The notes under the pieces were generated by a model. The model ran no database searches, was not told where the DNA came from, and saw only the letters and a program-made list of their open reading frames with translations. From Oscillibacter sp. (GTDB lineage: Bacteria > Bacillota > Clostridia > Oscillospirales > Oscillospiraceae), in assembly GCA_022791875.1 (NCBI GenBank), contig JAAVZX010000028.1, positions 1-64,000 on the forward strand: DNA of 64,000 nucleotides, written 5' to 3'. Each line of letters opens with the position of its first letter. Position 1 is the first letter of the stretch. The position numbers were made by a program, and so were the translations under genes. This document shows positions 26,422 to 46,209 of the stretch, in pieces.

Positions 26422-27093
26422 ATGGAGGAAATGCGGATTGTGCCGTATGCGGCGGAGCGGGAGTGGACGGCAGAGGGGATTCCGGTGCTTTCCGCGCTGG
26501 TGACGGTGCCGGTGCCGGAGCCTGCGGCGGGGCGGACGGAGCGGCGGATTAAGCGGTACTATCAGATGCAGGCGCGGGCGTACCTGCGGTACTGCCAGAG
26601 CCTGCTTCTGCCCCAGGCGGTGGCGGAGTACCACGCGGCGCTGGCGGCGAGCGCGCCGCTGCCCAGCTGGCGGGCGGAGCTGCGGTTTGTGGAGACGTGG
26701 CGGGAGGGAGGGCTGTGGAGCCTTTACACGGAGTCGCGGGAGGTGACGGGGCCTGGTCCGGCGCTGGTGACGCGGCGGGGGGATACCTGGGATTTGGCAG
26801 AGGGGTATCCGGTGCCTTTGCAGAGCTTTTTCCCCGGCGGGAACGCGTGGAAGAAGCGGCTGATCGAGTACGCGGCGGCGGAGATGGAGCGCAGGGAGCG
26901 GGCGGGGGTCAGCCGGTGGCATGAGGATTGGCGGAGACGGCTGAGACGGAAGTTTAATCCGCAGAATTTTTATTTGACAGCGGATGGGTTGGCGTTCTTT
27001 TACCCCATGTATGCGCTGGGACCGGCGGCGGAGGGGGTGCCGGTGTTTACGGTGGGGTATGGGGAGATTGGTGAGCGGGGGATGGGTACATAG
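26422..27093 (+). CDS. DUF3298 domain protein, no signal peptide
   Basis: 223 residues. The C-terminal segment NFYLTADGLAFFYPMYALGP followed by PVFTVGY is characteristic of DUF3298 domains, found in RsiV-type anti-sigma factors and PdaC-type peptidoglycan deacetylases. Here there is no signal peptide, transmembrane segment or deacetylase domain, so the protein appears cytoplasmic, like short stand-alone members in Clostridia. ATG at 26422 has AAGGAG seven bases upstream. A clean terminator follows at 27249. Function unknown. Confidence 0.75.
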   Translation: MEEMRIVPYAAEREWTAEGIPVLSALVTVPVPEPAAGRTERRIKRYYQMQARAYLRYCQSLLLPQAVAEYHAALAASAPLPSWRAELRFVETWREGGLWSLYTESREVTGPGPALVTRRGDTWDLAEGYPVPLQSFFPGGNAWKKRLIEYAAAEMERRERAGVSRWHEDWRRRLRRKFNPQNFYLTADGLAFFYPMYALGPAAEGVPVFTVGYGEIGERGMGT

Positions 27094-27248: not shown

Positions 27249-27284
27249 GGGCAGATTCTATATGTGAATCTGCCCAAGTTTTTT
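27249..27284 (+). terminator. Rho-independent terminator
   Basis: GGGCAGATTC / GAATCTGCCC stem with a seven-base loop, then AAGTTTTTT. It separates the DUF3298 gene from the lacI-led island. Confidence 0.9.
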
Positions 27285-27437: not shown

Positions 27438-28469
27438 ATGGCTACCATCAAAGATGTCGCAAAAATGGCCGGGGTCTCCCCCAGCACCGTCTCCCGGACC
27501 CTCAGCGGGAAAATCCCCGTGGACAGCGAAACCCGGGAGCGGGTCATGAACTGCGTCCGGCAGCTGGACTACCGCCCCAACGTCATCGCCAAGGGCCTGC
27601 GGGAGGGGAAGACCAGGGCCATTGCCTTCCTGCTCCCCAACATCGAAAACCAGATTTACCCCAGCCTCGCCATCGCCGTGGAGGCGGAGGCCCGCCGGCA
27701 CGGCTACTTCGTCTTCTTCTGCAACACCCAGGACGACCCGCAGCGGGAACTGGACTACGTGGAAAAGCTGAAAAGCCGTTTCGTGGACGGCTTCATCTTC
27801 TCCACCGCCGCCAGCGACAGCCCCACCATCCTCCAGCTCCGGAGGCAGGAATACCCGGTGGTCTGCCTCATGCGAGCCACGGCGGACGGCGTGAACGCGT
27901 TTGTCTCCAACAACGAGCAGGGGGCCTACCTGGGCGTCAGCTTCCTGATCGAAAACGGCTTTACCCGCATTGCCACCATCACGGGCCGTCCCAGCCTGGA
28001 GCTGTACAAGCAGCGCCTCCAGGGCTACTGCCGCGCTCTGGAGGACCACGGCCTCCCCCTGGACCCGGCGCTGATCTGGAGCGGCGTGGACGGCCAGTGC
28101 GAGAAAGCCTTTCACTGCACCCGGGAGCACCTTCTGGCAGGCCCGCCGCCGGAAGTCATCTTCGCCCAGAGCGACCCTCTGGCCTTCGACGCCATGCGGG
28201 CGGCGGGCTCTTTGGGCCTGCGGGTGCCGGAGGACCTCTCGGTCCTGGGCTACGACAACGTGCCTCTGGCCGCATGCTACACCCCGCCCCTCACCACCGT
28301 GGAGCAGCCCCTCCACGAAATGGGGAAAGCCGCCGTCCAGCGCCTGATCTCCATGATCGAAGGGGACATCCCCCTGGAGAGTCCCGCCACCCAATTCTCC
28401 GCCAACATCATCATCCGCGGCTCCGTGAAGCTGGCGGGGCAAAAAACGATAAGGGAGTTTACGTCATGA
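27438..28469 (+). CDS. LacI family transcriptional regulator
   Basis: 343 residues. Residues 1-55 are the LacI-type helix-turn-helix and hinge (MATIKDVAKMAGVSPSTVSR, then LDYRPNVIAKGLR), followed by a periplasmic-binding-protein-like sensor domain (IAFLLPNIENQIYPSLAIAV start; DLSVLGYDNVPLA near the end). It leads the catabolic island and its ATGA overlaps the next gene, so regulator and first enzymes are co-transcribed. The ligand is probably the island's substrate or an intermediate. GGAGGTG precedes the start. A candidate operator lies just upstream, suggesting autoregulation. Confidence 0.93.
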   Translation: MATIKDVAKMAGVSPSTVSRTLSGKIPVDSETRERVMNCVRQLDYRPNVIAKGLREGKTRAIAFLLPNIENQIYPSLAIAVEAEARRHGYFVFFCNTQDDPQRELDYVEKLKSRFVDGFIFSTAASDSPTILQLRRQEYPVVCLMRATADGVNAFVSNNEQGAYLGVSFLIENGFTRIATITGRPSLELYKQRLQGYCRALEDHGLPLDPALIWSGVDGQCEKAFHCTREHLLAGPPPEVIFAQSDPLAFDAMRAAGSLGLRVPEDLSVLGYDNVPLAACYTPPLTTVEQPLHEMGKAAVQRLISMIEGDIPLESPATQFSANIIIRGSVKLAGQKTIREFTS

Positions 28470-29368
28470 GACTGGAAACCGTGAACGCGAAAAGCCGCCT
28501 GTACGCCATCCTGGGGGACCCGATCTCCCACTCCATGTCCCCGGTCATCATGAACAGTGCCTTTGACCGCCTGGGCCTGGACAGCGTGTTCCTGGCCCTG
28601 CCCGCCAACCTGGAAACCGTCGCCCGCGTCATGGAGGCGATGCGGCTGATCGACCTGAAGGGCTACGTCTTCACGATGCCCGTGAAGGAGGCTGTCCTGC
28701 CGTACATGGACGCGCTGAGCGACGAGGCCGAGATGATCGGCGCGGTGAACTGCGCGGTGAACGAGGGCGGGAGGCTGACCGGGTACAACACGGACAGCAC
28801 CGGCTTCTGGACTGCCGTCCAGGAGAAGAACGCCGGGGCCGTCTCCATCCGCAAGGTCTTTATCATGGGCGCGGGGGGCTTCGCGCGGGCTGCCGCCGCC
28901 CAGGCGGCTTTGCAGGGCGTCGGGGAAATCGTGGTCGCCAACAAGTTCTCCCACACGGCGTTTCTGGAGAGCTTTCAGCGCTTCCGGGAACGGCTGTCCG
29001 CCCGCTGTCCCCAGACCTTCGTCAAGCTGCTGGACTGGGACGGCGCGGCCTGGGAGGCGGAGCTGGCGGACTGCCAGCTGATCGCCAACGCCACGCCCAA
29101 CGGCATGAAGAACCAGGGGGACCTGCACAGCTTCTTCCCCTATGCCGCCGTCTCCCCCGCGGCCATTTTCTTCGACGCCATCTACGACCCGTATCATACC
29201 CGCTTCCTCTAGGCGGCGGAGGCGCGGGGCCACAAGATTGTGGGCGGTCTGGACCTCCTGGCCCATCAGGGCGTGTGCTCCTTCTTCAACTGGACGGGCC
29301 TGCGTGTTGCGCCGGAGCAGATGCGGGAGGACGTTCTGGCCTTTTGGAAGGCCCACGGGCAGGGATAA
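28466..29368 (+). pseudogene. Shikimate/quinate dehydrogenase-like protein interrupted by an in-frame TAG
   Basis: AroE-family reductase of 300 codons if the amber codon 249 (29210-29212) is ignored. Conserved family features are present: GDPISHSMSP (SxS substrate serines), FTMPVK (Thr and catalytic Lys), GAVNCAVN, GYNTDSTGF (catalytic Asp) and the NADP loop GAGGFARA. The asparagine normally before the T-x-P-x-K motif is replaced by Val, so this is a divergent paralogue, not the housekeeping enzyme. The 51 codons after the TAG continue the family pattern (GLDLLAHQGVCSFFNW), including the substrate-binding Gln. Without read-through that part is lost. The ATG overlaps the lacI stop. Confidence 0.8.
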
Positions 29369-29380
29369 GGAGGGGACGCT

Positions 29381-30148
29381 ATGGAAAAAACGGCACTGGT
29401 AACAGGCGGCGGACGGGGCATCGGCCTGGGCGTGGTCCGCGCCCTGGCCGCGGAGGACTACACCGTTGCCATCACGGGCAGCAGCCCGGAGGACCGCTAC
29501 GCCGGTACGCTGGAGGCTTTGCGGAACGAGGGCCGGAAGGTCTTCTACATTCAGGGCGATATCTCCGACACCGCCAGCATCCGCCGCTGCGCGGAGGATG
29601 CCGCTGACCGCCTGGGGCGGATCGACGTGCTGGTGAACAACGCCGGAGTCGCCCCCAGGGTGCGGGCGGACCTCCTGGAAATGACGGAGGAGAGCTTCGA
29701 CCGGGTGGTGGGCACCAACACGCGGGGGACCATGTTCATGTCCCAGGCCGTGGCGAAACAGATGCTGGCCCAGGAACCCCGGGACGGGGCGCGGGGCGTG
29801 ATCATCAACATCAGCTCCGTCTCCGCTTTCATTTCCTCCGTGAACCGCGGGGAATACTGCGTCTCCAAGGCGGGCATCTCCATGCTGACGAAGCTCTTCG
29901 CCGACCGCCTGGCCCCTGAGCAGATCTACGTCTACGAGATCCAGCCCGGAATTATCCAGACGGACATGACGGCCCGCGTGAAGGAGCAGTACGACGCGTT
30001 TTTCGCGGGCGGGGGCAGTCCCATTGCCCGCTGGGGCCTGCCGGAGGACATCGGGCGGGCGGCGGCGGCGCTCTGCTCGGGCAGCTTCCGTTATACGACG
30101 GGACAGGCCGTCCGCGTGGACGGCGGGATGCACATTCAGAGGCTTTGA
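29381..30148 (+). CDS. SDR family NAD(P)-dependent oxidoreductase
   Basis: Classical short-chain dehydrogenase/reductase, 255 residues. Cofactor loop TGGGRGIG at 8-15, NNAG at 86-89, catalytic Ser145/146 (ISSVS), Tyr159 and Lys163 (YCVSK). FabG-like overall, but its place between a shikimate-dehydrogenase-like gene and a flavoprotein points to a catabolic hydroxyl/ketone interconversion. Near the Gly-rich loop there is no acidic residue clearly fixing NAD over NADP. AAGGAGG precedes the start, 12 bases after the stop of the AroE-like frame. Confidence 0.92.
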   Translation: MEKTALVTGGGRGIGLGVVRALAAEDYTVAITGSSPEDRYAGTLEALRNEGRKVFYIQGDISDTASIRRCAEDAADRLGRIDVLVNNAGVAPRVRADLLEMTEESFDRVVGTNTRGTMFMSQAVAKQMLAQEPRDGARGVIINISSVSAFISSVNRGEYCVSKAGISMLTKLFADRLAPEQIYVYEIQPGIIQTDMTARVKEQYDAFFAGGGSPIARWGLPEDIGRAAAALCSGSFRYTTGQAVRVDGGMHIQRL

Positions 30149-30168
30149 CGGGAAAGGAGCGGAATCAA

Positions 30169-32121
30169 ATGGAGTGGAAGATCACAGAAACCGGCGGCTA
30201 CCCCTTGCGGACCATAACCGTGGGAACCGCAGTCGTAGGCAGCGGCGCGGCGGGCTTCAACGCGGCGGACCAGCTCTGGATGCTGGGGTGCCGGGACGTG
30301 GTGCTGGTGACGGAGGGGGTCAAACGGGGCACCTCCCGGAACACCGGGGCCGACAAGCAGACCTATTACAAGCTGACTCTCTGCGGCGGGGAGCCGGACT
30401 CCGTGGGGGAGATGGCCCGGACCCTGTTTGACGGGCACTGCATGGACGGGGACCACGCCCTGGCGGAGGCGGCCAACTCCCTGCCCTGCTTCCTGCGGCT
30501 GTGCGGGCTGGGGGTCCCCTTCCCGGTGAACCGCTACGGGGAGTACGTGGGCTACAAGACGGACCACGACCCCCGCCAGCGGGCCACATCCGTGGGGCCG
30601 CTGACCTCCCGGAAGATGACGGAGGCCCTGGAGCGCTCCGTGACGGAGAAGGGGATTCCCGTGCTGGACGGCCTGCTGGCAGTGGCGGTCCTGACGGAGA
30701 CGGGGGCCGTGAAGGGACTGCTCTGCCTGGACCTGAACGCCGAAAGCCGTGAGAACGCTTACGCCGCCATCTGCTGCACGAATGTGGTCTGGGCCACGGG
30801 CGGGCCCGCGGGGATGTACGCCGACACGGTGTATCCCGTGGGGCACTATGGCATGACGGGCGTGCCCCTGGAGGCGGGGGCCCTGGGGAAGAACCTGACG
30901 GAGTGGCAGTACGGCCTCTCGTCGGTGCGGCCCCGCTGGAACGTCTCCGGGACCTACATGCAGGTCCTCCCCCGCTTCATCTCCACGGACGCCGAGGGCG
31001 GCGATCCCCAGGAATTCCTCTCCGACTTCTTTGAGGACGAGGGTGACATGCTGACCCGCGTGTTCCTGAAGGGCTATCAGTGGCCCTTCGACGTGCGGAA
31101 GCTCCAGGGGTCCTCCATCATCGACATCCTGGTCTACATCGAAATCAGCCTCAAGGGCCGCCGGGTCTTCCTGGACTACACCCGAAATCCCAAGGACCGC
31201 CCCATCCCCTTCGACTGCATGGGCGCGGAGGCCCGCGATTACCTCCGGAACGCCGGAGCGGATTTCGGCACCCCCATCCAGCGCCTGCGGCACATGAACG
31301 CCCCCGCCGTGGAGTTCTACCTCAGCCGCGGTGTGGACCTGGAGAAAGAGCCTCTGGAGATCGCCCTCTGCACCCAGCACAACAACGGCGGTCTGGACGT
31401 AGACGCCTGGTGGCAGACCTGCGTGGCGGGTCTGTTCGCCGCAGGGGAGGCGGCGGGGACCCACGGCGTCTACCGCCCCGGCGGCAGCGCGCTGAACTCC
31501 GGACAGGTGGGCTCCCTCCGCGCGGCCCGCTATATCGCCTGGAAGCGGACCCAGGCCCTGGACGAACCGGGCTTTGCCCGCGCCTGCGGTAATGTTCTCC
31601 CCGCGCATCTGGCCCGCTTCGACGCGGTTCTGGGGGACGAGGACACTGTTCCCGCCCTGTGGAGTCAGGCCCAGGCCCGCATGACCCGCTCCGGCGGGCC
31701 CATCCGGAACCTGAACGGCATCCGCGAGGCCGCGGCCTCCGCCCGCGCCCATCTGGACGCCTTTCCCCGGGAGGTGCGGGTGAAGACCGTTCGGGGCCTG
31801 GGGGACGCCTACCACTATTGGGACGCCCTGGTCTGCCAGACGGTGTACCTGGGGGCCATGGAAGACTACATCCAGGCGGGCGGCAAGAGCCGCGGGTCGG
31901 TGATCTACCAGTCTCCGGAGGGGACGCGGCCCTACGCGGCCCTGCCGGAGCTGTTCGCCTGCCAGATGGACGAGGGCGAACTGGACGGGCAGGTGCAGCT
32001 GGCGCAGTATGGCCGGGAGGGGTGCCGCTATACCTGGCGGGATGTGCGGCCCCTGCCGGAGAAGGACGATTTCTTCGAGAACGTGTGGCGCAGCTTCCGG
32101 GAGAACGGGAACGTGGAGTGA
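30169..32121 (+). CDS. FAD-dependent fumarate-reductase-like flavoprotein
   Basis: 650 residues, family of fumarate reductase / succinate dehydrogenase / APS reductase flavoproteins. The N-terminal dinucleotide loop GSGAAGFNAA is at 24-33, with the GTSRNTGADKQTYYK segment after it; the C-terminal FAD-contact GVYRPGGSALNSGQVGSLRAARY is clear. No signal peptide, heme motif or covalent-flavin FMN domain is seen, so it is a soluble cytoplasmic reductase or dehydrogenase needing another electron partner. In the island it would fit reduction of an alpha,beta-unsaturated acid. ATG at 30169 follows AAAGGAG; an earlier TTG overlapping the SDR stop is less likely. Confidence 0.85.
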   Translation: MEWKITETGGYPLRTITVGTAVVGSGAAGFNAADQLWMLGCRDVVLVTEGVKRGTSRNTGADKQTYYKLTLCGGEPDSVGEMARTLFDGHCMDGDHALAEAANSLPCFLRLCGLGVPFPVNRYGEYVGYKTDHDPRQRATSVGPLTSRKMTEALERSVTEKGIPVLDGLLAVAVLTETGAVKGLLCLDLNAESRENAYAAICCTNVVWATGGPAGMYADTVYPVGHYGMTGVPLEAGALGKNLTEWQYGLSSVRPRWNVSGTYMQVLPRFISTDAEGGDPQEFLSDFFEDEGDMLTRVFLKGYQWPFDVRKLQGSSIIDILVYIEISLKGRRVFLDYTRNPKDRPIPFDCMGAEARDYLRNAGADFGTPIQRLRHMNAPAVEFYLSRGVDLEKEPLEIALCTQHNNGGLDVDAWWQTCVAGLFAAGEAAGTHGVYRPGGSALNSGQVGSLRAARYIAWKRTQALDEPGFARACGNVLPAHLARFDAVLGDEDTVPALWSQAQARMTRSGGPIRNLNGIREAAASARAHLDAFPREVRVKTVRGLGDAYHYWDALVCQTVYLGAMEDYIQAGGKSRGSVIYQSPEGTRPYAALPELFACQMDEGELDGQVQLAQYGREGCRYTWRDVRPLPEKDDFFENVWRSFRENGNVE

Positions 32122-32238
32122 GCGGGCCCCTCCGGGGCGGCTTGTAAAAAGGCGCTGAGGCGAAAAGAAAGCCAAATCCCATGAGCGGATAGTAAAAATT
32201 CAGGCGTTTCCGGCATTTTGGCCGGAGGCGCGGAGCGC

Positions 32239-32283
32239 GGAACCCGGATGCCCTGCGGCGCAGGCGTCCGGGTTCCCTTTTTT
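32239..32283 (+). terminator. Rho-independent terminator after the flavoprotein gene
   Basis: 14-bp stem (GGAACCCGGATGCC / GGCGTCCGGGTTCC, one G-T wobble) followed by CTTTTTTC. Confidence 0.88.
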
Positions 32284-32379
32284 CTGTCAGGCGCGAAGGC
32301 GTTGTGCAAATTCCGACAAATTTATGCTAAAAAACACAAAATAGCTGTACGAAAAACACAAATCAAAAAAGACGGCTTG

Positions 32380-32388
32380 TGCTATACT
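32380..32388 (+). promoter_or_regulatory. Probable promoter of dctPQM (extended -10)
   Basis: TGCTATACT, -10 at 32383-32388 with upstream TG. No good -35. The transcript would start near 32395, giving a 55-base leader with AAAGGGG before dctP. Confidence 0.6.
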
Positions 32389-32449
32389 TCTAAATGCAGA
32401 GGGCAAAACCCACACAAATCTGGTCAACATTAGAAAGGGGAAGACGAAC

Positions 32450-33499
32450 ATGAAAAAGTTTCTGTCAATGGTTCTTGCAGCGTTGATGCTTACCGCGAGC
32501 CTGAGCGCCTGCGGCGAGTCCGGAGGCTCCGGCGGTTCCTCCGGCGGGGACAGCGGCGCGCCCGCGGACGACGGCAAGGTTTACACCCTCCAGGCGGCCT
32601 ACACCGTGGCGGAGGACCCCAATTCCCAGCACACCATTAAGTTCAACACCTTCAAGGAGCTGGTGGAGGAGAAGACCGACGGCCACGTGATCATCGAGGT
32701 CCACCCCGGCGGCGAGCTGGGCAGCGAGCAGGAGTACATCGAAATGCTCCAGAACGGCGAGCTGGCCTTCACCAACGTGGCCTCCTCCATCGTCTCCGGC
32801 TTCACCGACGCCATCACCTTCGCCGACTGCCCCTTCCTGTTCCGGGACCAGGCCCAGGTGATTGAGTTCGTCCACAGCGACGTCTGCGCCGCCCGTCTGG
32901 CGCAGCTGGAGGACATCGGCCTCATCGGCCTGGGCCTCTCCTCCGTGGGCGACCGGAACTTCCTCACCGTGGCGAACAAGCCCATCACCTGCCTGGCGGA
33001 CATGAAGGGCCTGAAGCTGCGCACCATGCAGACCGCCATCCAGGTGGAGGCCGTGGGCCTGCTGGGCGCTCAGGCGACTCCGCTGTCCTACAACGAGTGC
33101 TACCAGTCCATGCAGACCAACGTCATTGACGGCATGGAGAACGAGGTGGACACCTACCTCGCCATGCGCTTCTACGAGGTGGCCCCCAACTACACCAAGG
33201 CCGGCTGGCTCCAGCTCATGCACGCCTTCCTGGCCTCCAAGGAGATCATGGAAGGTCTGCCCGAGGAGTACCAGCAGATCATCCTGGAGGCCGCGGCGGA
33301 GGCCAACGACGTGTCCACGGAAAAGGGCATGGAGTACGCCAAGGGCGCGGCGGCGGACAAGCTGGCCGAGGTGGGCGCAAATGTCATCGAGATTGCCGAC
33401 AACTCCGAGTTCAAGCAGGCCCTTATCGACGGCGGCCTGTTCGAGAAGTACAACGACCTGATCGGCCAGGACGTCATCGACTGGGTGGATCAGCACTGA
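32450..33499 (+). CDS. dctP: TRAP transporter substrate-binding lipoprotein (DctP family)
   Basis: 349-residue extracytoplasmic solute receptor. A lipobox LSAC with Cys21 and a Gly/Ser-rich spacer (22-40) anchor it to the outside of the membrane. The DctP fold is evident: HPGGELGSEQEYIEMLQNGE, then DMKGLKLRTMQT with Arg191, the residue that salt-bridges the substrate carboxylate in this family. Hence the ligand is probably an organic acid. It precedes dctQ and dctM as in standard TRAP operons. Confidence 0.93.
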   Translation: MKKFLSMVLAALMLTASLSACGESGGSGGSSGGDSGAPADDGKVYTLQAAYTVAEDPNSQHTIKFNTFKELVEEKTDGHVIIEVHPGGELGSEQEYIEMLQNGELAFTNVASSIVSGFTDAITFADCPFLFRDQAQVIEFVHSDVCAARLAQLEDIGLIGLGLSSVGDRNFLTVANKPITCLADMKGLKLRTMQTAIQVEAVGLLGAQATPLSYNECYQSMQTNVIDGMENEVDTYLAMRFYEVAPNYTKAGWLQLMHAFLASKEIMEGLPEEYQQIILEAAAEANDVSTEKGMEYAKGAAADKLAEVGANVIEIADNSEFKQALIDGGLFEKYNDLIGQDVIDWVDQH

Positions 33500-33583
33500 G
33501 AACCGACAGGGAGAGGGGGGATTCTTCCCCTCTCCCCGCCCCGGCACTGTGATGTCTCTGCGGTGATATAGAAGGAGGCTTTC

Positions 33584-34120
33584 GTGAAAACGGTAATTAC
33601 AAAAATAGACCAGGGCATGGCTGTGTTTGAGAAGTCGGTCAGCCTGGTAATGGGCGTGCTGCTGTTCGCGCTGATGACCTGGTGCGTCATTGCCCGCTAC
33701 TGCCTCGCCCTCCCCTGCCCCTACCAGACGGAGCTGGCCCAGACCTTTCACATCTGGCTGTGCTTTATGGGCAGCAGCTACCTCTTCTCCATCAACGACA
33801 ACCCCAGCGTGGAAATTTTCTCCGGCAGGGCCATGGCCAGCAAAAACATGACCTTCAAGAAGATCTACTTCACCCTCCTGGCCCTGACCAATTACATCTT
33901 TGTGGTTCCCTGCGTATACTTTGGAATTCAGAATCTTCCCCAATACGCCGCCCAGAAAACCACCTACCTGGGCTATTCCTACATCTGGATCTACGGCGCG
34001 GCGGTGTTTGGGTTTATCATGATCGCGGTCCGGATTGCCCTTCGGATTGCGGGCTATTGGTGCGGCATGTATCTGGACGGCCCTGAGCAGGCCGCAGGAA
34101 ACGGAGGTGCGGAAGGATGA
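33584..34120 (+). CDS. dctQ: TRAP transporter small permease (DctQ)
   Basis: 178 residues with four transmembrane helices, the small membrane subunit of the TRAP importer. The middle segment ARYCLALPCPYQTELAQTFHIWLCFMGSSYL is the expected conserved region. The start is GTG at 33584 with AAGGAGG five bases upstream, which decides the start. It overlaps dctM by four bases (ATGA). Confidence 0.92.
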   Translation: MKTVITKIDQGMAVFEKSVSLVMGVLLFALMTWCVIARYCLALPCPYQTELAQTFHIWLCFMGSSYLFSINDNPSVEIFSGRAMASKNMTFKKIYFTLLALTNYIFVVPCVYFGIQNLPQYAAQKTTYLGYSYIWIYGAAVFGFIMIAVRIALRIAGYWCGMYLDGPEQAAGNGGAEG

Positions 34121-35415
34121 GTACCGGTCTTTTGGCGCTGATTTTCTTCGTCAGCTTTTTTGCTCTGCTGTTTTTCGGCACCCCCATCACCTACGCCCTG
34201 GGCGGCGCGGGCACCCTCGCCATGCTGGCGGCGGGCATGAAGATGTCCCTGGTGATCAAGAGCGTCCTCTCCGGCTTCTCCAGCTTCACCATGCTGGCGA
34301 TCTTCCTCTTCACCCTCATGGGCGTTATCTACCAGAAGACCGGCCTGGCCGGACTGCTGGTGGACGCGCTGAAACCCTCCATCGGCAAGCGCCGGGGCGG
34401 TCTGGCCCTCATCGCCGTGTATGCCTCCGCCATTTTCGGCGCGCTGACCGGCTCCGCCAACGCCACCTGCGCCACCTTCAGCAAAATGCTGGGGCCTGAA
34501 ATGATCGACAACGGCTACCCCGACGACTGGACCGCCGCCACCATCGCGGCCTGCGCCCCGCTGGGTCAGCTGATTCCGCCCTCCGTTACCTGCATCGTCC
34601 TGGGCGTGGCCACGGGCCTCTCCATCGGCTCGTTGTTCATCGTCGACCTGTCCATCGGCCTGCTGACGGTTGTCTTCCTGACCGTGGCCATCATCGTCAT
34701 GTCCATCCGCAACGGCTTCGGCGGCAGCGACCGGATCTACACGGCCAAAGAGCGGCGGGAGGCATTCCTGCGCTTCCTGCCCCTGATCTCCGTCCCCGTG
34801 ATCGTCATCGGCGGCATGTACGGCGGCATTTTCACCGCCACCGAGGCCGGGGCCATCGGCTCCGCCGCCTCCTTCATCCTGGCCCTCTGCTACCGCCGCC
34901 TGAACCTGAAAACCGTCTACGAGATCTTCGCCGACGCGGGAAAGACCGCCGCCACAGTGCTTCTGCTCTGCGCATCCTCTTACGTGATCAGCTACGTCAT
35001 GAGCATGAGCGGCATGACGAAGTTCTTCGTCAGTATGCTGACAGGCATCTGCGACATGAGTCCCCTGCTGGGTATGCTCTTCCTGCTGGCGGTGCTGCTG
35101 GTGATGGGCTGCTTCATCGACCTGATCGTCCTATGCATCATCCTGGCCCCCACGGCGGTGACGGCCCTGACGCCCTTTGGCATCAACCCCTACGCCATCT
35201 GTGCCATTTTCCTCATCGGCAACCTGATCGGCATCATCACGCCTCCGGTGGGCGTGGCTCTGTTCATCTCCTCCTCTTCCCTGAAAGTGAAGATGGAGGC
35301 CATCTCCAAGCAGGTCATTCCCTACATCATCGTTTACATCATCCTGACCATCCTGCTCATCGTATTCCCCGACCTCTCCCTGCTGCTCCCGCGGCTGATG
35401 GGGCTGGACGTCTGA
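34117..35415 (+). CDS. dctM: TRAP transporter large permease (DctM)
   Basis: 432-residue permease with about 11-12 transmembrane segments, the translocating subunit of the sodium-coupled TRAP system. Conserved stretches include LTGSANATCATFSKMLGPEM, CAPLGQLIPPSVTCIVLGVA and the C-terminal IIAPTAVTAL/GIITPPVGVALF regions. Together with DctP and DctQ the importer is complete. A hairpin resembling a terminator follows at 35440. Confidence 0.95.
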   Translation: MSTGLLALIFFVSFFALLFFGTPITYALGGAGTLAMLAAGMKMSLVIKSVLSGFSSFTMLAIFLFTLMGVIYQKTGLAGLLVDALKPSIGKRRGGLALIAVYASAIFGALTGSANATCATFSKMLGPEMIDNGYPDDWTAATIAACAPLGQLIPPSVTCIVLGVATGLSIGSLFIVDLSIGLLTVVFLTVAIIVMSIRNGFGGSDRIYTAKERREAFLRFLPLISVPVIVIGGMYGGIFTATEAGAIGSAASFILALCYRRLNLKTVYEIFADAGKTAATVLLLCASSYVISYVMSMSGMTKFFVSMLTGICDMSPLLGMLFLLAVLLVMGCFIDLIVLCIILAPTAVTALTPFGINPYAICAIFLIGNLIGIITPPVGVALFISSSSLKVKMEAISKQVIPYIIVYIILTILLIVFPDLSLLLPRLMGLDV

Positions 35416-35439
35416 GGGAACAGCCGCATTACGGACCTT

Positions 35440-35495
35440 TGCGGACATACCGCGGGCAGCGTCTGCCGCCGGTATGTCCGCAGGGGATATTTTTA
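35440..35495 (+). terminator. Hairpin after dctM (possible terminator or attenuator)
   Basis: Long stem TTGCGGACATACCG / CGGTATGTCCGCA with an inner GGCAG/CTGCC hairpin, then AGGGGATATTTTT. The T-run is eight bases away from the stem, so termination may be partial and read-through into the glycyl radical enzyme gene is possible. Confidence 0.5.
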
Positions 35496-35573
35496 CACAA
35501 AAAATGCCGGATTCTACACATAATCGGCCAAACCACTGTGATAAATACAACGTTTTGCCTGTGTTGAATTCTA

Positions 35574-35579
35574 TATAAT
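35574..35579 (+). promoter_or_regulatory. Candidate -10 of the first glycyl radical enzyme gene
   Basis: TATAAT in an AT-rich stretch 70 bases before the ATG. No clear -35, which would suit an activator-dependent promoter (the AraC regulator at the end of the cluster is a candidate). Confidence 0.4.
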
Positions 35580-35649
35580 AAAGATAAGAACCGGCGGTAC
35601 AGGGAGTGCGCCGCCGTGCGAAAAAATTTGTGAAAAGGAGCGAAGGCGT

Positions 35650-38052
35650 ATGAAGCTCAGCAGAATGGAGCGTGTGGAGCTGATCCGGAGGCAGGTCCAC
35701 GTGGACCGCACCGTAGACACAGCCCGCGCCCGCCTGGTGACGGAATCCTACCGGGAGACGGAGGGCATGTCCGCGCCCCTGCGCCGCGCCCGGGCGCTGA
35801 AAAAAATCCTGGGCGGAATGCCCATCTACATCCACGAGGGCCAGCTCCTGGCGGGGAACCAGGGGGAGCGCTCCAGGGCGGGGCTGATCTACCCCGAGTT
35901 CCAGTGGGACGCCACCCTGAGCGAGATGGAGGGCTGGCCCACCCGCCCCGGCGACAAATTCGCCATCACTCAGGAGCAGATCGCGGAGCTCCGGGACCTC
36001 CTCTCCTACTGGAAGGGGAAGACGGTGAAGGACCGCGCCAACAGCGTCCTGCCCGAAAGCGTGCAGAGAAGCCTGAAATACGGCATCATCTCCAACTCCA
36101 ACTACCTGATGTCCGGCCACGGCCACTTCATCCCCGATTTCCCCCGGGTCCTCCAGCGGGGCTTCAGCGGCATCCGCCGGGAGATTGAGGAGCGCATGGA
36201 GGCCCTGGACCCCACCGCCGCGGACTACTACCACAAGTGCACCTTCTACCTGGGAGAGCTGGAGACCATCGAGGCCGTGGCCCTCTTCGCGTCCCGATAC
36301 GCGGATTTGGCGGAAAGCCTGGCGGCGGAAGCTGACGGCGAGGAGCGGAAACAGGAGCTGCTTCGCATCGCCGCAAACTGCCGCCATGTCCCCATGGAGC
36401 CGGCCCGGGACTTCTGGGAGGCCATGCAGTGCGTCTGGTTTGTGCAGCTCATCCCCCAGATCGAGGTGAACGGCCTGGCGGTGTCCCTGGGGCGGCTGGA
36501 CCAGTACCTGTATCCCTACTACCTGCATGACAGACAGGCCGGGACCCTGGACGACGACAAAACCCTGGAGCTGCTGGACTGCCTGTACCTCCAGGCGTCC
36601 ACCATCACCAAGATCTACGGAAACGAGGGGGCCATGATCTTCGCCGGACCCGGCGTGGGGCAGACCATCACCCTCTCCGGCGTGGACCGGGAGGGCCGGG
36701 ACGTGACCAACGAGCTGTCCTACCTCTGCATCGACGCGGACGCGGACGTGCGGCTCATGCAGCCGGACATCGCCGTGCGGAACCACCCCCGGATTCCGGA
36801 GAAGTTCCTGAAAAAATGCTGCGCCCACGCGGCCTCCGGACGGGATAAGCCCAAGTTCTTCACCGACCAGATCATCATCCAGTCCCTGATGAAGGCGGGC
36901 ATTCCCCTGGAGGACGCCCGGGACTTCGGCGACCTGGGCTGCTCGGAGATCATCGTGAACGGGAAGACCTGCTCCGGCGGCAACATGGGCAACGTGTGCC
37001 TGGCCATGTGCTTCGACCTGGCCCTCCACGACGGCGTCCAGCTCTGGTACTACAACGGGAAGGGCTTCGAGCCGTCCGTCCGGGTGCAGATGGGCCCCCG
37101 CACCGGCGATCCCCGCGCCTTCCGGACCATGGAGGACCTGCGCCGCGCCTACTCAGAACAGGTCCGCTATTTCGTCCGCCAGCTGGCGATTCTGGACAAC
37201 ACCCTGGACAACGTGCAGGCCGAAATGGTGCCCCACGTGTTCTACTCCCTGATTGTGGACGGCTGCATCGAGTCCGGCAGGGACTTTACCGCCGGAGGGG
37301 CCGTCTACAACCAGACCTCCCCCTTGGCGGCGGGCCCCATCACCGCGGCGGACTCCTTGACGGCGGTGAAAAAGCTGGTGTTCGACGAAAAGGCGCTCAC
37401 CATGGACGAACTTCTGACGGCCCTGGACAGCAACTTCGCCGGCGACGAGGGAGAGGCTCTCCGGCAGATGCTGATCCGCCGCGCCCCCAAGTTCGGCAAC
37501 GACGACGACTGCGCCGACGAGGAGGCCGTGTTCGTGGTGCGGGACTACGCGGAATCCATGGAGTCCTACACAAATCCCCGAGGCGGGCGCTGGGTGGCCA
37601 GCGTGTACAGCCTCACGGGCAACGTGGGCTTCGGCTGGCGCACCGGCCCCACCCCCGACGGGCGCAGGGGCGGCGAGCTTCTCAACGACAACATCTGCCC
37701 CATGCAGGGCCGGGACCTGAAAGGCCCCACCAGCGTCATCAAGTCCCTGTCCAAGATCGACGCCTCCCTCCTGCCCCAGGGCTATGTGTTCAACCTGAAA
37801 TTCACCCCCAACATTGTGAACAACCCGGAGAACCTGCAGAAGTTCGTGAACTTCAACCGCAGCCTCAACGACTACGGCATCTTCCACGTCCAGTACAACA
37901 TCCTGGACGGGAACACCCTTCTGGACGCCCAGAAGCACCCGGAGAATCACAAGGACCTTCTGATCCGCGTCTCCGGCTACAGCGCCTACTTTGTGGAGCT
38001 GGGCCGGGATGTCCAGGACCACCTGATCCAGAGAACCCTTCACCAAATCTGA
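35650..38052 (+). CDS. Glycyl radical enzyme 1 (dehydratase/eliminase type, substrate unknown)
   Basis: 800 residues. The C-terminal glycyl radical motif RVSGYSAYF carries Gly776, and the active-site loop DLGCSEIIVNGK carries thiyl Cys431 and base Glu433, i.e. the C-x-E arrangement of glycerol/propanediol dehydratase, CutC and HypD rather than the Cys-Cys pair of pyruvate formate-lyase. GHGHFIPDFPRVLQRG is the conserved substrate-side loop. The Ser in GCSE differs from the GCVE of most characterised members. No microcompartment genes are present, arguing against choline or propanediol use. Start follows AAAGGAG. Confidence 0.92.
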   Translation: MKLSRMERVELIRRQVHVDRTVDTARARLVTESYRETEGMSAPLRRARALKKILGGMPIYIHEGQLLAGNQGERSRAGLIYPEFQWDATLSEMEGWPTRPGDKFAITQEQIAELRDLLSYWKGKTVKDRANSVLPESVQRSLKYGIISNSNYLMSGHGHFIPDFPRVLQRGFSGIRREIEERMEALDPTAADYYHKCTFYLGELETIEAVALFASRYADLAESLAAEADGEERKQELLRIAANCRHVPMEPARDFWEAMQCVWFVQLIPQIEVNGLAVSLGRLDQYLYPYYLHDRQAGTLDDDKTLELLDCLYLQASTITKIYGNEGAMIFAGPGVGQTITLSGVDREGRDVTNELSYLCIDADADVRLMQPDIAVRNHPRIPEKFLKKCCAHAASGRDKPKFFTDQIIIQSLMKAGIPLEDARDFGDLGCSEIIVNGKTCSGGNMGNVCLAMCFDLALHDGVQLWYYNGKGFEPSVRVQMGPRTGDPRAFRTMEDLRRAYSEQVRYFVRQLAILDNTLDNVQAEMVPHVFYSLIVDGCIESGRDFTAGGAVYNQTSPLAAGPITAADSLTAVKKLVFDEKALTMDELLTALDSNFAGDEGEALRQMLIRRAPKFGNDDDCADEEAVFVVRDYAESMESYTNPRGGRWVASVYSLTGNVGFGWRTGPTPDGRRGGELLNDNICPMQGRDLKGPTSVIKSLSKIDASLLPQGYVFNLKFTPNIVNNPENLQKFVNFNRSLNDYGIFHVQYNILDGNTLLDAQKHPENHKDLLIRVSGYSAYFVELGRDVQDHLIQRTLHQI

Positions 38053-38083
38053 TCCCCGGAGCGGGGCAAAAGGAGGAACGCCC

Positions 38084-39013
38084 ATGTCCAGCCGGCATGA
38101 GGAGACCAAGGTTTTTAATATTCAGCGCTACTCCGTCCACGACGGCCCCGGCATCCGCACCATCGTGTTCTTGCAGGGCTGCCCCCTGCAATGCCCCTGG
38201 TGCGCCAACCCGGAGGGCAGGAGCTTCGCCAGCGTCCTGTCCCACAACCGCAGTCTCTGCCGCCTCTGCGGCCGCTGCACGGCGGTCTGCCCGGAGCAGG
38301 CCCTGCGCCTGGAGGAAGACGGCATCCACGTGGACCGGGCCCGCTGTACGCTGTGCGGCAAATGCGTCTGGACCTGCGCCGCGGATTGCTATAAGATTTT
38401 CGGGGAGCCTATGACGGTGGAGGAAGCGCTGAGGGAAGTGGGGAAGGACGAGAGCTTCTACTTCCGCAGCGGCGGCGGCATGACGGTCAGCGGCGGCGAA
38501 CCCCTGGCCCACCCGGAGTACCTTACCGCGCTGCTGAGGGGCGCGAAGGAACAGCTGGACGTGTCCACCGCCATCGAGACCTGCTGCTGTGCGCCGGAGG
38601 AATCCCTGCGGCGGGCCGCGGAATACGTGGATACCTTTCTCTGCGACATCAAAATCGTGGACTCCCGGCGGAGCCGGGAAATCCTGGGTGTTCCCAGCGA
38701 ACAGATTCTGCACAATATCCGCGTGATCGCGGAGGAGTATCCGGAGAAAACCCTTCTTCTTCGGATGCCCGTGATTCCCGGTTACAACGACGATCCGGAA
38801 AACATTCAGGGCATCGCCGCCTTTATCCGGAGCCTGAAACGGGAGGTTCCCCTGGAACTCCTGCCGTACCACGAGTTCGGAAAGGCGAAGTATGCCAACC
38901 TGGGCCTGCGCTACCTGCCGGGAGAGCAGGGCGTCGCCGCCCCCGACCGGGAGCGGATGGAGGCCCTTGCGCAGACGTTCCGGGATCTGGGTGTGACCGT
39001 GGTTCATACATAA
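38084..39013 (+). CDS. Glycyl-radical enzyme activating protein (radical SAM)
   Basis: 309-residue activase that installs the glycyl radical on its partner using S-adenosylmethionine. The radical SAM motif Cys33-x3-Cys37-x2-Cys40 is in GCPLQCPWCANPEG. A ferredoxin-like insert with two four-cysteine clusters follows (LCRLCGRCTAVC and RCTLCGKCVWTCAADC), typical for activases of GD/HypD/CutC-type enzymes. SGGGMTVSGGEPL is the SAM-binding segment. It sits between the two glycyl radical enzyme genes and is the only activase in the window, so it probably serves both. AAAGGAGG precedes the ATG. Confidence 0.95.
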   Translation: MSSRHEETKVFNIQRYSVHDGPGIRTIVFLQGCPLQCPWCANPEGRSFASVLSHNRSLCRLCGRCTAVCPEQALRLEEDGIHVDRARCTLCGKCVWTCAADCYKIFGEPMTVEEALREVGKDESFYFRSGGGMTVSGGEPLAHPEYLTALLRGAKEQLDVSTAIETCCCAPEESLRRAAEYVDTFLCDIKIVDSRRSREILGVPSEQILHNIRVIAEEYPEKTLLLRMPVIPGYNDDPENIQGIAAFIRSLKREVPLELLPYHEFGKAKYANLGLRYLPGEQGVAAPDRERMEALAQTFRDLGVTVVHT

Positions 39014-39029
39014 TAAGGAGGCCATTGAG

Positions 39030-41453
39030 ATGAGTGATCGAATTGAATACCTGCGCATGAAAGCGGCCAGCGCCAAGAGCTATATCTGCGGCGAACGGGG
39101 CAGGATCATCACAGACTCCTACCGCGCCACCGAGGGGGAGGACCCCGTAATCCGCCGGGCCATCGCCCTGCGGGACATCCTGGACAACATGAGCATCGTC
39201 ATCGACGAAAACGAGCTAATCATCGGCAACCACGCCACCATGGAGAACGCCGCGCCCCTGTTCCCGGAGTTCAGCATCGGCTTCCTGGTGAAGGAGCTGG
39301 ACGAGTTCGAGAAGCGCCCCTACGACCGCTTTTACGTGACGGAAGAGACGAAGACCCTGATCCGTGGGATCGCCCCCTACTGGCAGGGCCGGACCCACGA
39401 GGACCGGGTGGTCCGCACCACAAAGCGGATGTTCCCGGAGTCCCTTCTCCAGGTCTGGGACGAGGACTGCTTCCGGCTCAACGACGTGCTCTACGACGGC
39501 GTGCGCAAATCCGCCGGAGACGGCCACATCGTCCCGGACTACTTCAAGATGATGCGGGGGGGCGTTCCCGGCGTGCTGTGGGAGGCGGAGAAGGCCCGGG
39601 CAAAGCTGGATCTGCGGAAGGACCCCAAGGCTTTTGAGAAGAAGCTGTTCCTGGACGCGGTGTCCATCAGCTACACCGCCGTGGAGCGCTGGTTCCTGCG
39701 CTTCGCGGAAAAGGCGGAGGCGATGATCCCCCAGGCGAAGGAGGAGAACAAGCCCACGCTGAAGCGGGCGGCGGACTGCTGCCGCCATCTGGCCTCCGGC
39801 GCGCCCTCCAGCTTCTTTGAGGCCCTCCAGCTCACCTATTTCCTCCACCTGATCATCCACATTGAGAGCAACGGCCACTCCGTCTCCCTGGGCCGGATCG
39901 ACCAGTACCTGTACCCCTTCTACGAGAAGGACCTGCGGGAGGGCGTGCTCACCCGGCGGGAGGCCCTGGACCTCATCGACTGCTTCTATATCAAGGTCAG
40001 CCGCTTCAACAAGGTGCGCCCCTGGCCGGAAACCCGCCTGAAGAGCGGCGCGCCCATGTTCATGACCATCACCCTGGGCGGCGTGGACCGGGAGGGCCGG
40101 GAGTGCTCCAACGAGCTGACGGGGCTGTTCCTGGACGCCCTGCCGGAAACCCGCCTGCCCCAGCCCACCCCCATTCTCCGCGTGGCGAAGGACACGCCAC
40201 AGGACCTGATGGTCCGGGCGGTCCAGGCTCTGCTGAAGCACGGCGGCGGGCTCCCCGCCTTCTTCTCCGACGAGGCCATTGTGGCCTCTCTGGTCAAGAC
40301 CGGCGTCCCCCTGGAGGACGCGCGGGAGTACGCCATCGGCGGCTGCTCCGAGGCCGTCATCCCCGGCAAGAGCTTCTCCTTCACCGGCGGCGACTGCTAC
40401 TTCAACCTCCTGAAAATCCTGGAGATTCTTCTCCACGAGGGGGTCAATCCCCGGACGGGGAAGACCCTGTTCCCGGCGAAAAAACTGGAGGAGTACCACA
40501 GCGCGGAGGACATCTTTGAGGCGTTCCGGAAGCAGCTCTCCCAGTACATGAGCTACATTGTGGAGCTGACCGCCATCACCTCCGCCACGGACGCGGCCCT
40601 GAATCCCACGCCCTTCACCTCCGGCCTGCTGGACTACCGCATCGAAATGGGCCGGGACATGTCCCTGGGCGGCGGCGAGAGCGCCCGTTATTCCCACACC
40701 ATCCTCCAGGGCCACGGCACCGGGGACCTCTGCAACGCCCTGTACGCCCTGGAAAAGCTGGTGTTTGAGCAGAAGGCCCTGACGCTGCGGGAGTTCGTGG
40801 AAATCCTGGACCGCAACTGGGCCGGGGCGCGGGGCGAGGAGGTGCGGCTCATGACCCACCGCCTGCCCAAGTACGGCAACGACGAAGACGACGTGGACGC
40901 CTGGGCGGCCCGCATCGGGGACTTCTTCGCCAGAGAGGCCCAACAGTACATCCCCTGGCGGGGCGGCGTGTTCGGCACCTCCCTCCAGGGCCTGACGGCC
41001 AACGTGCCCGAGGGCGAGACCGTGGGGGCCACTCCCGACGGCCGCATGGCCCATGAGGCCCTCTCCGACAACGTCTCCCCCCACGCCGGAACGGACACCC
41101 ACGGCCCCACCTCCACCCTCAAGAGCGTGTCCAAGGTGGACCACACCCTCTTCATCGACGGCAACATCCTGAACCTCCGCTTCCACCCCAGCGCCCTGAC
41201 GGACGCCTACGGCCAGTTCGATCCCCTGCGGGGCGCCCGCTTCGCGGACATGGTGAAGAGCTACCTGGTGGACCTGGCGGGGAACCAGGTGCAGTTCAAC
41301 ATCCTCTCCGCCGGGGAGCTCCGGGCCGCTCAGGCCCACCCGGAGGAATACCGGGACCTGGTGGTGAAGGTGGCGGGCTACAGCGCCTACTTCAACTCCC
41401 TGGACAAGGGCCTGCAGGACCAGATTATCGAGCGCACGGAACACGCGCTGTAA
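39030..41453 (+). CDS. Glycyl radical enzyme 2 (dehydratase/eliminase type, substrate unknown)
   Basis: 807 residues, clearly a paralogue of the first enzyme but well diverged. Glycyl radical motif KVAGYSAYF with Gly783; thiyl Cys439 and Glu441 in IGGCSEAVIPGKSF. It starts 16 bases after the activase with AAGGAGG. GDGHIVPDYFKMMRGG matches the conserved substrate-side loop, and HIESNGHSVSLGRIDQYLYP the alpha-beta barrel segment common to the family. Both enzymes share the GCSE variant, so they may act on related compounds or successive steps. Confidence 0.92.
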   Translation: MSDRIEYLRMKAASAKSYICGERGRIITDSYRATEGEDPVIRRAIALRDILDNMSIVIDENELIIGNHATMENAAPLFPEFSIGFLVKELDEFEKRPYDRFYVTEETKTLIRGIAPYWQGRTHEDRVVRTTKRMFPESLLQVWDEDCFRLNDVLYDGVRKSAGDGHIVPDYFKMMRGGVPGVLWEAEKARAKLDLRKDPKAFEKKLFLDAVSISYTAVERWFLRFAEKAEAMIPQAKEENKPTLKRAADCCRHLASGAPSSFFEALQLTYFLHLIIHIESNGHSVSLGRIDQYLYPFYEKDLREGVLTRREALDLIDCFYIKVSRFNKVRPWPETRLKSGAPMFMTITLGGVDREGRECSNELTGLFLDALPETRLPQPTPILRVAKDTPQDLMVRAVQALLKHGGGLPAFFSDEAIVASLVKTGVPLEDAREYAIGGCSEAVIPGKSFSFTGGDCYFNLLKILEILLHEGVNPRTGKTLFPAKKLEEYHSAEDIFEAFRKQLSQYMSYIVELTAITSATDAALNPTPFTSGLLDYRIEMGRDMSLGGGESARYSHTILQGHGTGDLCNALYALEKLVFEQKALTLREFVEILDRNWAGARGEEVRLMTHRLPKYGNDEDDVDAWAARIGDFFAREAQQYIPWRGGVFGTSLQGLTANVPEGETVGATPDGRMAHEALSDNVSPHAGTDTHGPTSTLKSVSKVDHTLFIDGNILNLRFHPSALTDAYGQFDPLRGARFADMVKSYLVDLAGNQVQFNILSAGELRAAQAHPEEYRDLVVKVAGYSAYFNSLDKGLQDQIIERTEHAL

Positions 41454-41567
41454 GTGAAACGGCGTCCGCGGGAAGAGGGGGCCTCTTTCCGCGGACAGCC
41501 GCTTTTCCCGTGGAAGAAGAGCGAAAGAGACTGAGGCGGTTCGGTTTTGCCGGGAGGTGCAGATGCC

Positions 41568-42452
41568 ATGGCCTTTGAAGAAGAGTACAACATGCTGGAT
41601 AAGCGCATCCACTTGCAGGATACCATTACAGTCTCCCTGGAATTCCTGGGCTTTGTGGAGTACGATCCCAATGAGCACGGCCTGGTCCACCAGTATTCCT
41701 GCTGGTGCTACAACTTCCTAGGCACGGGTCGGGGAGCGTATGTGATGGGGAACCGGGAGATCACAGTGGGGGCGGGAGGAGGAATCCTGATTCCTCCCTA
41801 TACCCGGCATGCCCTCTACAATCCGGGTCCTCAGAAGATGCAGCTTCTCTACATGGGCTTCGACTGCAACTGCTTCAGCTTCATCGGAAGCCTGGTAAGG
41901 AGCACGGACACAGAGGACATCATAGAGATCAACCATGCCCTCAGCAAGTCCTACTACACGAAGTCCTTCCACCAGAAGCTGAACGGCCTCCTCTGCCAGC
42001 TGGGGATCAGCAAGGACAAGGAAACGCTGGAGGACTGCCGCCTGACCCTGATGGAGGACCTGCTGAAGATGTACGATTTCTGCCACAGCTGGTACAAGAA
42101 GAGGACGCCGGCCAATCCGGACGCGTTTCTGATCCAGGACGCGAAGAACATCATCATGCACAACCTCAGCCGCAACATCTCCATTCAGGAGCTGTCCAAG
42201 GCGCTGTACGTGTCGCCCAGGAAGCTGACCTCAAAGTTTCTGGAGCTGACGGGGATGAGCTTCAAGGACTACAGTCAGATGCTGAAAATGGAGCAGGCCA
42301 GCCGGCTGCTGTACTCGTCCGGGAAGAATGTGTCGGAGATTGCGGAGGAATTGGGGTTCTGCGACATCCATTACTTCTCCCGGAGGTTCAAGGATTACTA
42401 TGGCTGCTCGCCCAGCGCCCTGCGGAAGAAGGGGGACCAGGGCGGAGCCTGA
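41568..42452 (+). CDS. AraC family transcriptional regulator (cupin + HTH)
   Basis: 294 residues. The N-terminal half is an AraC-type cupin (QYSCWCYNFLGTGRGAYVMG, then ILIPPYTRHALYNPG). The C-terminal ~100 residues hold two helix-turn-helix motifs (ISIQELSKALYVSPRKLTSK; VSEIAEELGFCDIHYFSRRF, then GCSPSALRKK). ATG at 41568 has GGGAGGTG eight bases upstream. Being last in the cluster, it likely activates the glycyl radical enzyme genes in response to the substrate. A bidirectional terminator follows. Confidence 0.9.
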   Translation: MAFEEEYNMLDKRIHLQDTITVSLEFLGFVEYDPNEHGLVHQYSCWCYNFLGTGRGAYVMGNREITVGAGGGILIPPYTRHALYNPGPQKMQLLYMGFDCNCFSFIGSLVRSTDTEDIIEINHALSKSYYTKSFHQKLNGLLCQLGISKDKETLEDCRLTLMEDLLKMYDFCHSWYKKRTPANPDAFLIQDAKNIIMHNLSRNISIQELSKALYVSPRKLTSKFLELTGMSFKDYSQMLKMEQASRLLYSSGKNVSEIAEELGFCDIHYFSRRFKDYYGCSPSALRKKGDQGGA

Positions 42453-46180: not shown

Positions 46181-46209
46181 AACGATCCCCCATAAAAACA
46201 TGATGCAAT

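Follow-up and report, generated by a model that had tools for sequence, protein, structure and literature searches.

Positions 27,438 to 42,452 of a 64,000-nucleotide stretch of Oscillibacter sp. (assembly GCA_022791875.1, contig JAAVZX010000028.1, positions 1 to 64,000; hereafter the window) hold a cluster in which two glycyl radical enzymes (GREs) and one activase stand together with a tripartite ATP-independent periplasmic (TRAP) importer, an AroE-like dehydrogenase, a short-chain dehydrogenase/reductase (SDR), and a flavoprotein. We interpret it, with a probability of about 0.5, as an inducible operon for the anaerobic catabolism of a polyhydroxylated carboxylic acid through two radical dehydrations. 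Judging from sequence comparisons, the cluster is real, rare, and conserved in at least two species, and both GREs fall outside every curated GRE pathway that we scanned. Every reaction and the substrate discussed below are our reading of gene content, conservation, motifs, and predicted folds.

All 11 genes, from the LacI-family to the AraC-family regulator, lie on the plus strand (Table 1), according to the open reading frame (ORF) list of the window and Pfam and NCBIfam scans of ten operon proteins. The AraC protein was outside both family scans and was identified through its match in a second genome of the genus, G254; its ORF is listed from 41547, with 41568 the likelier start. GRE1 and the activase are separated by 31 bases, and the activase and GRE2 by 16. 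The activase translation contains the CX3CX2C radical S-adenosylmethionine (SAM) motif and two ferredoxin-type 4Fe-4S motifs, as expected of a GRE activase. An initial annotation of this DNA had described nine co-directional genes between LacI and AraC regulators, and this was exact in positions, strand, and family calls; it had missed the in-frame TAG of the AroE-like gene. Its view that the cluster is catabolic, anaerobic, and undescribed, with two GREs of the eliminase type and an organic-acid TRAP importer, was supported. The source is a draft assembly of 2.95 Mb in 88 contigs, 84.6% complete. A terminator-like stem-loop (10 pairs and a T tract) lies just upstream of the LacI gene, at window positions 27249-27275.

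Table 1. Genes of the cluster in window coordinates, with the features on which each call is based.
Gene	Positions	Strand	Features
LacI-family regulator	27438..28469	+	PF00356 and PF13377; overlap of its stop with the AroE-like ATG
AroE/YdiB-like dehydrogenase, truncated	28466..29212	+	PF08501; in-frame TAG 29210-29212
SDR oxidoreductase	29381..30148	+	PF13561/PF00106; NF009386 at 338.2 bits, passing the 250-bit cut-off
FAD flavoprotein, SdhA/FrdA/NadB fold, active site diverged	30169..32121	+	
DctP, TRAP solute receptor	32450..33499	+	PF03480; Arg169, Arg191, and Asn231 at conserved TRAP receptor positions
DctQ, TRAP small permease	33584..34120	+	PF04290; no NCBIfam match
DctM, TRAP large permease	34117..35415	+	PF06808; TIGR00786 above cut-off
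GRE1, glycyl radical eliminase	35650..38052	+	PF02901 and PF01228; Cys431-Ser-Glu433, radical glycine Gly776
GRE activase, radical SAM	38084..39013	+	TIGR02494 above cut-off; PF04055 and Fer4
GRE2, second glycyl radical eliminase	39030..41453	+	PF02901 and PF01228; Cys439-Ser-Glu441, radical glycine Gly783
AraC-family regulator	41568..42452	+	Called by sequence; 60% orthologue after GRE2 in G254

The clustering goes beyond chance because ten of the 11 genes keep their order on one contig of G254, with AraC at 60% identity and the other nine at 67.6 to 85.4%. That contig breaks off immediately upstream of the AroE-like gene, and the LacI gene was not detected on it. GRE2 occurred at 80% identity or more in 4 of 86 genomes of the genus (the source genome, G000; G759, 91%; G254, 82%; and G753, 80%); among 300 genomes sampled from the family, two had it, the source included, and the next match was at 38%. 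Apart from these, the highest matches among 398 genomes sampled from the phylum were in G1142 (61%) and G904 (48%), and the other matches listed were at 41% or less. GRE1 was found in 3 of 391 genomes of a class sample (E ≤ 1e-175), namely, the source, G414 (42%), and G585 (40%), and the flavoprotein in 8 of the 300 family genomes, the source included (E ≤ 1e-60). G759 has GRE1 (95%, truncated at the end of the contig), the activase, GRE2, and AraC (89%). The GRE unit extends to one distant genome and GRE2 alone to others; a nine-gene pathway would rest on two species.

In that distant genome, G1142, GRE1, activase, and GRE2 stand in the same order at 61.5, 46.5, and 61.1% identity. Downstream, on the same strand, come a third GRE (37% identical to GRE1), a frame that by eye is transposase-like, a second activase, E1-alpha, E1-beta, E2, and a lipoyl-dihydrolipoyl dehydrogenase (E3), so that one strand of L197:1-16690 (G1142:C22) holds three GREs, two activases, and the E1-alpha/E1-beta/E2/E3 genes. 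In G904, GRE2 (48%) lies beside DctP, DctQ, DctM, and an activase; the E1-alpha, E1-beta, and E2 genes there run divergently. The E1 and E2 subunits of both genomes match pyruvate dehydrogenase models; because they do so mostly below equivalog cut-offs (E1-beta passes a subfamily cut-off), an acetoin-type or other 2-oxoacid-type activity is equally possible. This context, from two genomes, would suit a 2-oxo acid or alpha-hydroxyketone product, as the dehydration of a polyhydroxy acid would give.

Both GREs have the residues of eliminases: the Cys-x-Glu (CXE) motif as GCSE, the glycine loops SGYSAYF (GRE1) and AGYSAYF (GRE2), and the His of the GH motif. Since PMC7077986 describes Cys-x-Glu as conserved among GRE eliminases, it is fair to expect that GRE1 and GRE2 eliminate next to a hydroxyl. 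The generic model TIGR01774 (cut-off, 678.2) was passed by GRE1 (739), with GRE2 below it (654.5). All four enzyme-named models were far from reached: HypD (NF043068; cut-off, 1,100 bits; GRE1, 510.1; GRE2, 507.8), CutC (TIGR04394; cut-off, 1,050; 525.4 and 417.3, in a scan without a CutC positive control), HpfG (NF048009; cut-off, 1,000; 589.5 and 526), and HpsG (NF048011; cut-off, 1,000; 555.3 and 453.6, likewise without an HpsG control). Among ten other GREs scanned, one passed HypD (L012, 1462.3), two passed HpfG (1042.1 and 1001.2), and seven passed none, so a position outside the curated families is not surprising by itself and is common in this bacterial family. An Asp in the HypD control that we take, from its motif, to be Asp278 aligned with Leu in GRE1 and His in GRE2. 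HypD requires Asp278, according to PMC7077986.

The best PDB match of both GREs by phmmer was glycerol dehydratase 1r8w (GRE1, 550 bits; GRE2, 528.6 bits), followed for GRE1 by 9rco ("glycyl radical protein"; 545.5) and diol dehydratase 5i2a (511.5) and for GRE2 by 5i2a (486.9). The comparison with these dehydratases rests on phmmer scores because no NCBIfam model in the scan results bears the name of glycerol or diol dehydratase; no match named IslA/IseG came up either. At the His281-Ser282 pair of glycerol dehydratase (numbering presumed, here and for Asp447), GRE1 has Leu-Ala and its G254 orthologue has Leu-Ser, GRE2 keeps both residues, and the Asp447 column is changed in both GREs. In a tree of 37 GREs, GRE1 joined the G414 protein (100/97), at an open fork close to the HpfG clade, and GRE2 and its orthologue formed an isolated branch (length, 1.21) without a supported sister; this tree carries a long-branch warning, with the grouping of G414 and GRE1 among those flagged. 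Consistent with the idea that the cluster is undescribed, neither GRE clustered tightly with HypD or CutC (by cut-offs and tree) or with IslA (by phmmer score only). A third GRE, below all equivalog cut-offs, is present in the source genome (L001, G000:C19) and in G254 (L036, G254:C11), in the latter followed by an activase, DctP, and DctM.

The importer points to a carboxylate. Several TRAP receptor entries are probably uronate complexes, and the solved relatives of DctP include 4mhf, 4n91, and 7bbr, the last titled a sugar acid binding protein. In PMC7660916, 4mhf and 4n91 are glucuronate binders, and Arg170, Arg150, and Asn210 of STM3169 are ligand residues of glucuronate-binding TRAP receptors, with Arg170 the carboxylate-binding Arg. 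DctP has Arg191, Arg169, and Asn231 at these positions, by spacing and by alignments to receptors other than STM3169. In hexuronate receptors, STM3169 has Asn35, Gln36, Glu74, and Asp237 as additional contacts to the ligand. The AlphaFold2 (AF2) model of DctP was built from 5 aligned sequences (mean predicted local distance difference test score, 75).

The flavoprotein has an SdhA-type fold, and its active site differs from that of the named members. Of the NadB residues His244, Arg290, His351, and Arg386, which we take by role and number to be the dicarboxylate site, the first is Gly or Ser, the second Ala or Ser, and the third Gln, and only Arg386 is kept, as Arg436, across 61 aligned flavoproteins (the window protein, L053, and 59 of 62 listed relatives; the alignment used for AF2). 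MAFFT and hhalign placed the four positions alike; the stretch around Arg290 is weakly aligned. A classical fumarate reductase is ruled out by these three changed residues, and for the same reason the reduction of an unsaturated acid cannot be read from the family: in the initial annotation's fumarate-reductase-like flavoprotein, the fold stood and the proposed reduction of a conjugated unsaturated acid was weakened.

The family is widespread, with at least 572 confirmed loci, and to our knowledge it has no assigned function. Neighbor families, defined as clusters of open frames of at least 100 amino acids, were counted in 85 loci; L053 (taken as the contig of L034) and L046 (the same region as L058) are omitted, L050 and L051 are two pieces of one genome (G296), and further repeats among the 85 are possible. 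An SDR occurred in at least 69 of them and an old yellow enzyme (OYE)-like protein in at least 62, both lower bounds because some loci are short. An IlvD/Edd-type dehydratase was present in nine (confirmed by Pfam or NCBIfam for examples), and two had an AroE-like gene within the stretch fetched. Labels assigned by reading the sequence gave UxaC in 8, KdgK in 11, and Eda-labelled frames in 14; these names, like UxaA, are readings, and one frame of the Eda cluster (L054:4133-4510) has no Pfam match. A GH28 polygalacturonase was confirmed in L103.

The combination of OYE-like flavoprotein, SDR, and SdhA-fold flavoprotein recurs widely (L054-L132; e.g., L083:6709-11929, L060, and L103) in Clostridia, Spirochaetes, Halanaerobium, Cellulomonas, and others, partly with a zinc alcohol dehydrogenase, an AP_endonuc_2 epimerase, IlvD/Edd, URO-D (MtaA/CmuA-like), and Liv-type ATP-binding cassette (ABC) genes. 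One locus, L148:1-10380 (G710:C37), joins SDR, LacI, and epimerase genes and the flavoprotein with Liv-type ABC genes, a family-III CoA-transferase, a MaoC-type hydratase, and a divergent AroE-like gene; it could be an independent hydroaromatic-acid locus.

The AroE-like gene is truncated in this assembly, as far as its reading frame tells, and decay, strain variation, and assembly error are all possible. Past its TAG the frame stays open to a TAA at 29367-29369, and the read-on part still matches the G254 protein, whose gene is intact, with the frame open across the TAG place and Gln262 (YdiB numbering) present. The TAG costs the window protein ∼50 residues, including the column of this conserved Gln, and leaves it with neither the full length nor the C-terminal Gln262 of AroE/YdiB dehydrogenases. 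Because two other window genes (10576-11331 and 56343-58520) end in TAG, we treat TAG as a true stop in the window, and recoding is ruled out. The best PDB relatives are a shikimate dehydrogenase (3tnl, presumably from Listeria) and YdiB-type quinate/shikimate dehydrogenases. By alignment, the protein keeps the YdiB columns Ser22, Lys71, Asn92, Thr106, Asp107, and Tyr234, which we take to be the catalytic Lys and Asp and substrate-site residues, and has Phe for Tyr39; identity to YdiB is 28.5%. In a tree made with the truncated protein, it branched toward YdiB, away from the genome's second AroE (contig C7; a long branch), at a fork with support of 88/97 that we drew as open. G1142 has an AroE-like match (E = 1.3e-31) on another contig than its GRE unit.

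In the pathway that we propose, DctPQM would import the acid, the AroE-like enzyme and/or the SDR would interconvert hydroxyl and ketone, and the activase would install the glycyl radical on GRE1 and GRE2. Each GRE would take off a hydroxyl next to a hydroxyl-bearing carbon by radical 1,2-elimination of water, the two successive dehydrations would give deoxy-keto acids, and the flavoprotein would contribute a redox step on ring or chain. The pyruvate/acetoin-dehydrogenase-type subunits of G1142 and G904 would then turn the resulting 2-oxo acid or alpha-hydroxyketone into an acyl-CoA. Between the two substrate classes that the initial annotation had offered, a sugar acid of the aldonate or uronate type has a slight lead, owing to part of the DctP relatives and of the flavoprotein neighborhoods; a hydroaromatic acid of the quinate/shikimate type is kept as a candidate mainly because of the AroE-like gene.

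Several observations weigh against this interpretation. The GRE pair is not always kept: in G753 (96% complete), GRE2 (80%) and AraC (60%) share a 14.8-kb contig from which GRE1 and the activase are absent. The flavoprotein was unmatched at E ≤ 1e-20 in the genomes G753, G759 (60% complete), and G1142, and the fetched stretches of the other 84 of the 85 flavoprotein loci held no GRE, so the GRE and redox parts occur apart. With a truncated AroE-like gene in the window and parts that can occur separately, as in G753, a single nine-gene pathway is backed by synteny in two species only. The window operon has no E1/E2 complex. With regard to the substrate, the match lists that hold the glucuronate receptors also hold receptors for isethionate (8t9t), sialic acid, and ectoine, the DctP Arg and Asn positions are general to TRAP receptors and kept in the top PDB matches, and identity to the entries of the structural list is 18 to 26%; for these reasons the DctP ligand is not fixed. 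The majority of flavoprotein loci lack the named uronate genes, and the shikimate-site residues kept in the AroE-like protein argue for a hydroaromatic acid.

If the substrate were such an acid (quinate, shikimate, or dihydroshikimate), the AroE-like enzyme would oxidize a ring hydroxyl, the GREs would remove ring hydroxyls, and the SDR and flavoprotein would reduce the ketone and the ring, with a deoxygenated cyclohexane carboxylate or a ring-cleaved acid as product. The placement of the AroE-like protein and its six kept YdiB columns speak for this, as does G710, where an AroE-like gene (36% identity; the other AroE of that genome has 28%) lies divergently next to a flavoprotein/SDR locus. 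We nevertheless consider it somewhat improbable: the window gene stops before Gln262, Tyr39 is replaced, identity to YdiB is low, the 5-ketofructose reductase 7cok among the AroE-like PDB matches indicates that the fold also serves sugars, and the two flavoprotein loci with an AroE-like gene compare with nine with IlvD/Edd. More specifically, two GREs with a shared activase might strip the ring hydroxyls of quinate or shikimate in anaerobes and would then be candidate genes for the microbial conversion of dietary quinate towards cyclohexane carboxylate, with the acetoin-dehydrogenase-type complex of the three-GRE relative opening the deoxygenated ring, a proposal to which we give little credence. 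Cyclohexane carboxylate formed from dietary quinate becomes hippurate in the host. Among the matches listed from a PubMed Central full-text collection (subscription papers and preprints lie outside this scope), no title or opening of an abstract linked a GRE to the degradation of quinate or shikimate or to the present gene set.

The cluster might instead be two side-by-side modules with different substrates, AroE-SDR-flavoprotein under LacI and TRAP-GRE1-activase-GRE2 under AraC. The spacing of 328 bp ahead of DctP and of 234 bp ahead of GRE1 would suit such a division, as would GRE2 and AraC without a flavoprotein match in G753 and flavoprotein/SDR loci elsewhere without GREs. The gene order kept in two species and the single strand make it unlikely; neither gap has a plus-strand promoter-like or terminator-like site, which is weak evidence because site numbers were no higher than in shuffles (3 versus 2.2 and 13 versus 11.0). 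It is very improbable that weak annotation hides a known GRE pathway (HypD, CutC, HpfG/HpsG, or diol/glycerol dehydratase): 1r8w is the top PDB relative of both GREs, and 5i2a is third for GRE1 and second for GRE2, but both proteins score far below the HypD, CutC, HpfG, and HpsG cut-offs and differ at the dehydratase and HypD residues noted above, with GRE2 keeping His281-Ser282.

The initial annotation had also called the cluster an island. In the sense of recently acquired foreign DNA this is not supported, as GC content inside the cluster (63.7%) equals that of the flanks (62.8% and 63.9%); the G254 contig is at 56.4%. In G732, the left-flank gene (window 26422-27093) and the Hsp70/J-domain pair (42552-46201) are direct neighbors, arranged differently relative to each other; the comparison therefore yielded no clean insertion point and hints at rearrangement around the operon.

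In anaerobic guts and sediments, GREs account for a large share of dehydration chemistry, and many are without a known substrate, as the seven of ten scanned GREs that pass no curated cut-off illustrate. Three genomes of one genus, one of them through a partial contig, and one distant relative in the phylum share the unit of two different GREs and one activase; TRAP genes accompany it in two of these genomes and 2-oxoacid-dehydrogenase-type genes in another. The unit offers a well-defined target in the search for new radical chemistry, with sugar acids or quinate-type acids as candidate substrates.

Among known systems, the glycerol and diol dehydratases (1r8w and 5i2a) share with both GREs the CXE motif, glycine loop, and GH-motif His, whereas GRE1 has Leu-Ala for His281-Ser282 and both GREs differ at Asp447; the operon differs further by its TRAP importer and redox genes, and no microcompartment domain occurs in the ten scanned operon proteins. 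Of the (2S)-3-sulfopropanediol dehydratases HpfG and HpsG, HpfG is the top-scoring enzyme-named equivalog for GRE1 and its nearest clade, on an open fork, but GRE1 stays well below both 1,000-bit cut-offs, and here two GREs accompany one activase. HypD, a trans-4-hydroxy-L-proline dehydratase, provides a precedent for a GRE eliminase acting on a ring substrate and has the CXE motif and GH-motif His in common with both GREs, which reach half its curated cut-off and differ at the presumed Asp278 column; pyrroline-5-carboxylate reductase is not among the ten scanned operon proteins. Like YdiB, the AroE-like protein keeps the catalytic residues, but it is truncated and 28.5% identity gives no ground for the same substrate, and unlike SdhA, FrdA, and NadB, the flavoprotein lacks His244, Arg290, and His351 and has no Fe-S subunit gene in the operon. 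Isethionate lyase (IslA/IseG) scores below the diol dehydratases as a relative (7kq3; GRE1, 431.2 bits; GRE2, 305.1 bits; compared by phmmer score only); its sulfonate-binding residues are Arg187, Gln191, and Arg676. In the arrangement of its genes, the operon resembles the IslA/IseG loci, which, according to PMC6453916, likewise join a GRE, an activase, and a TRAP importer in one locus.

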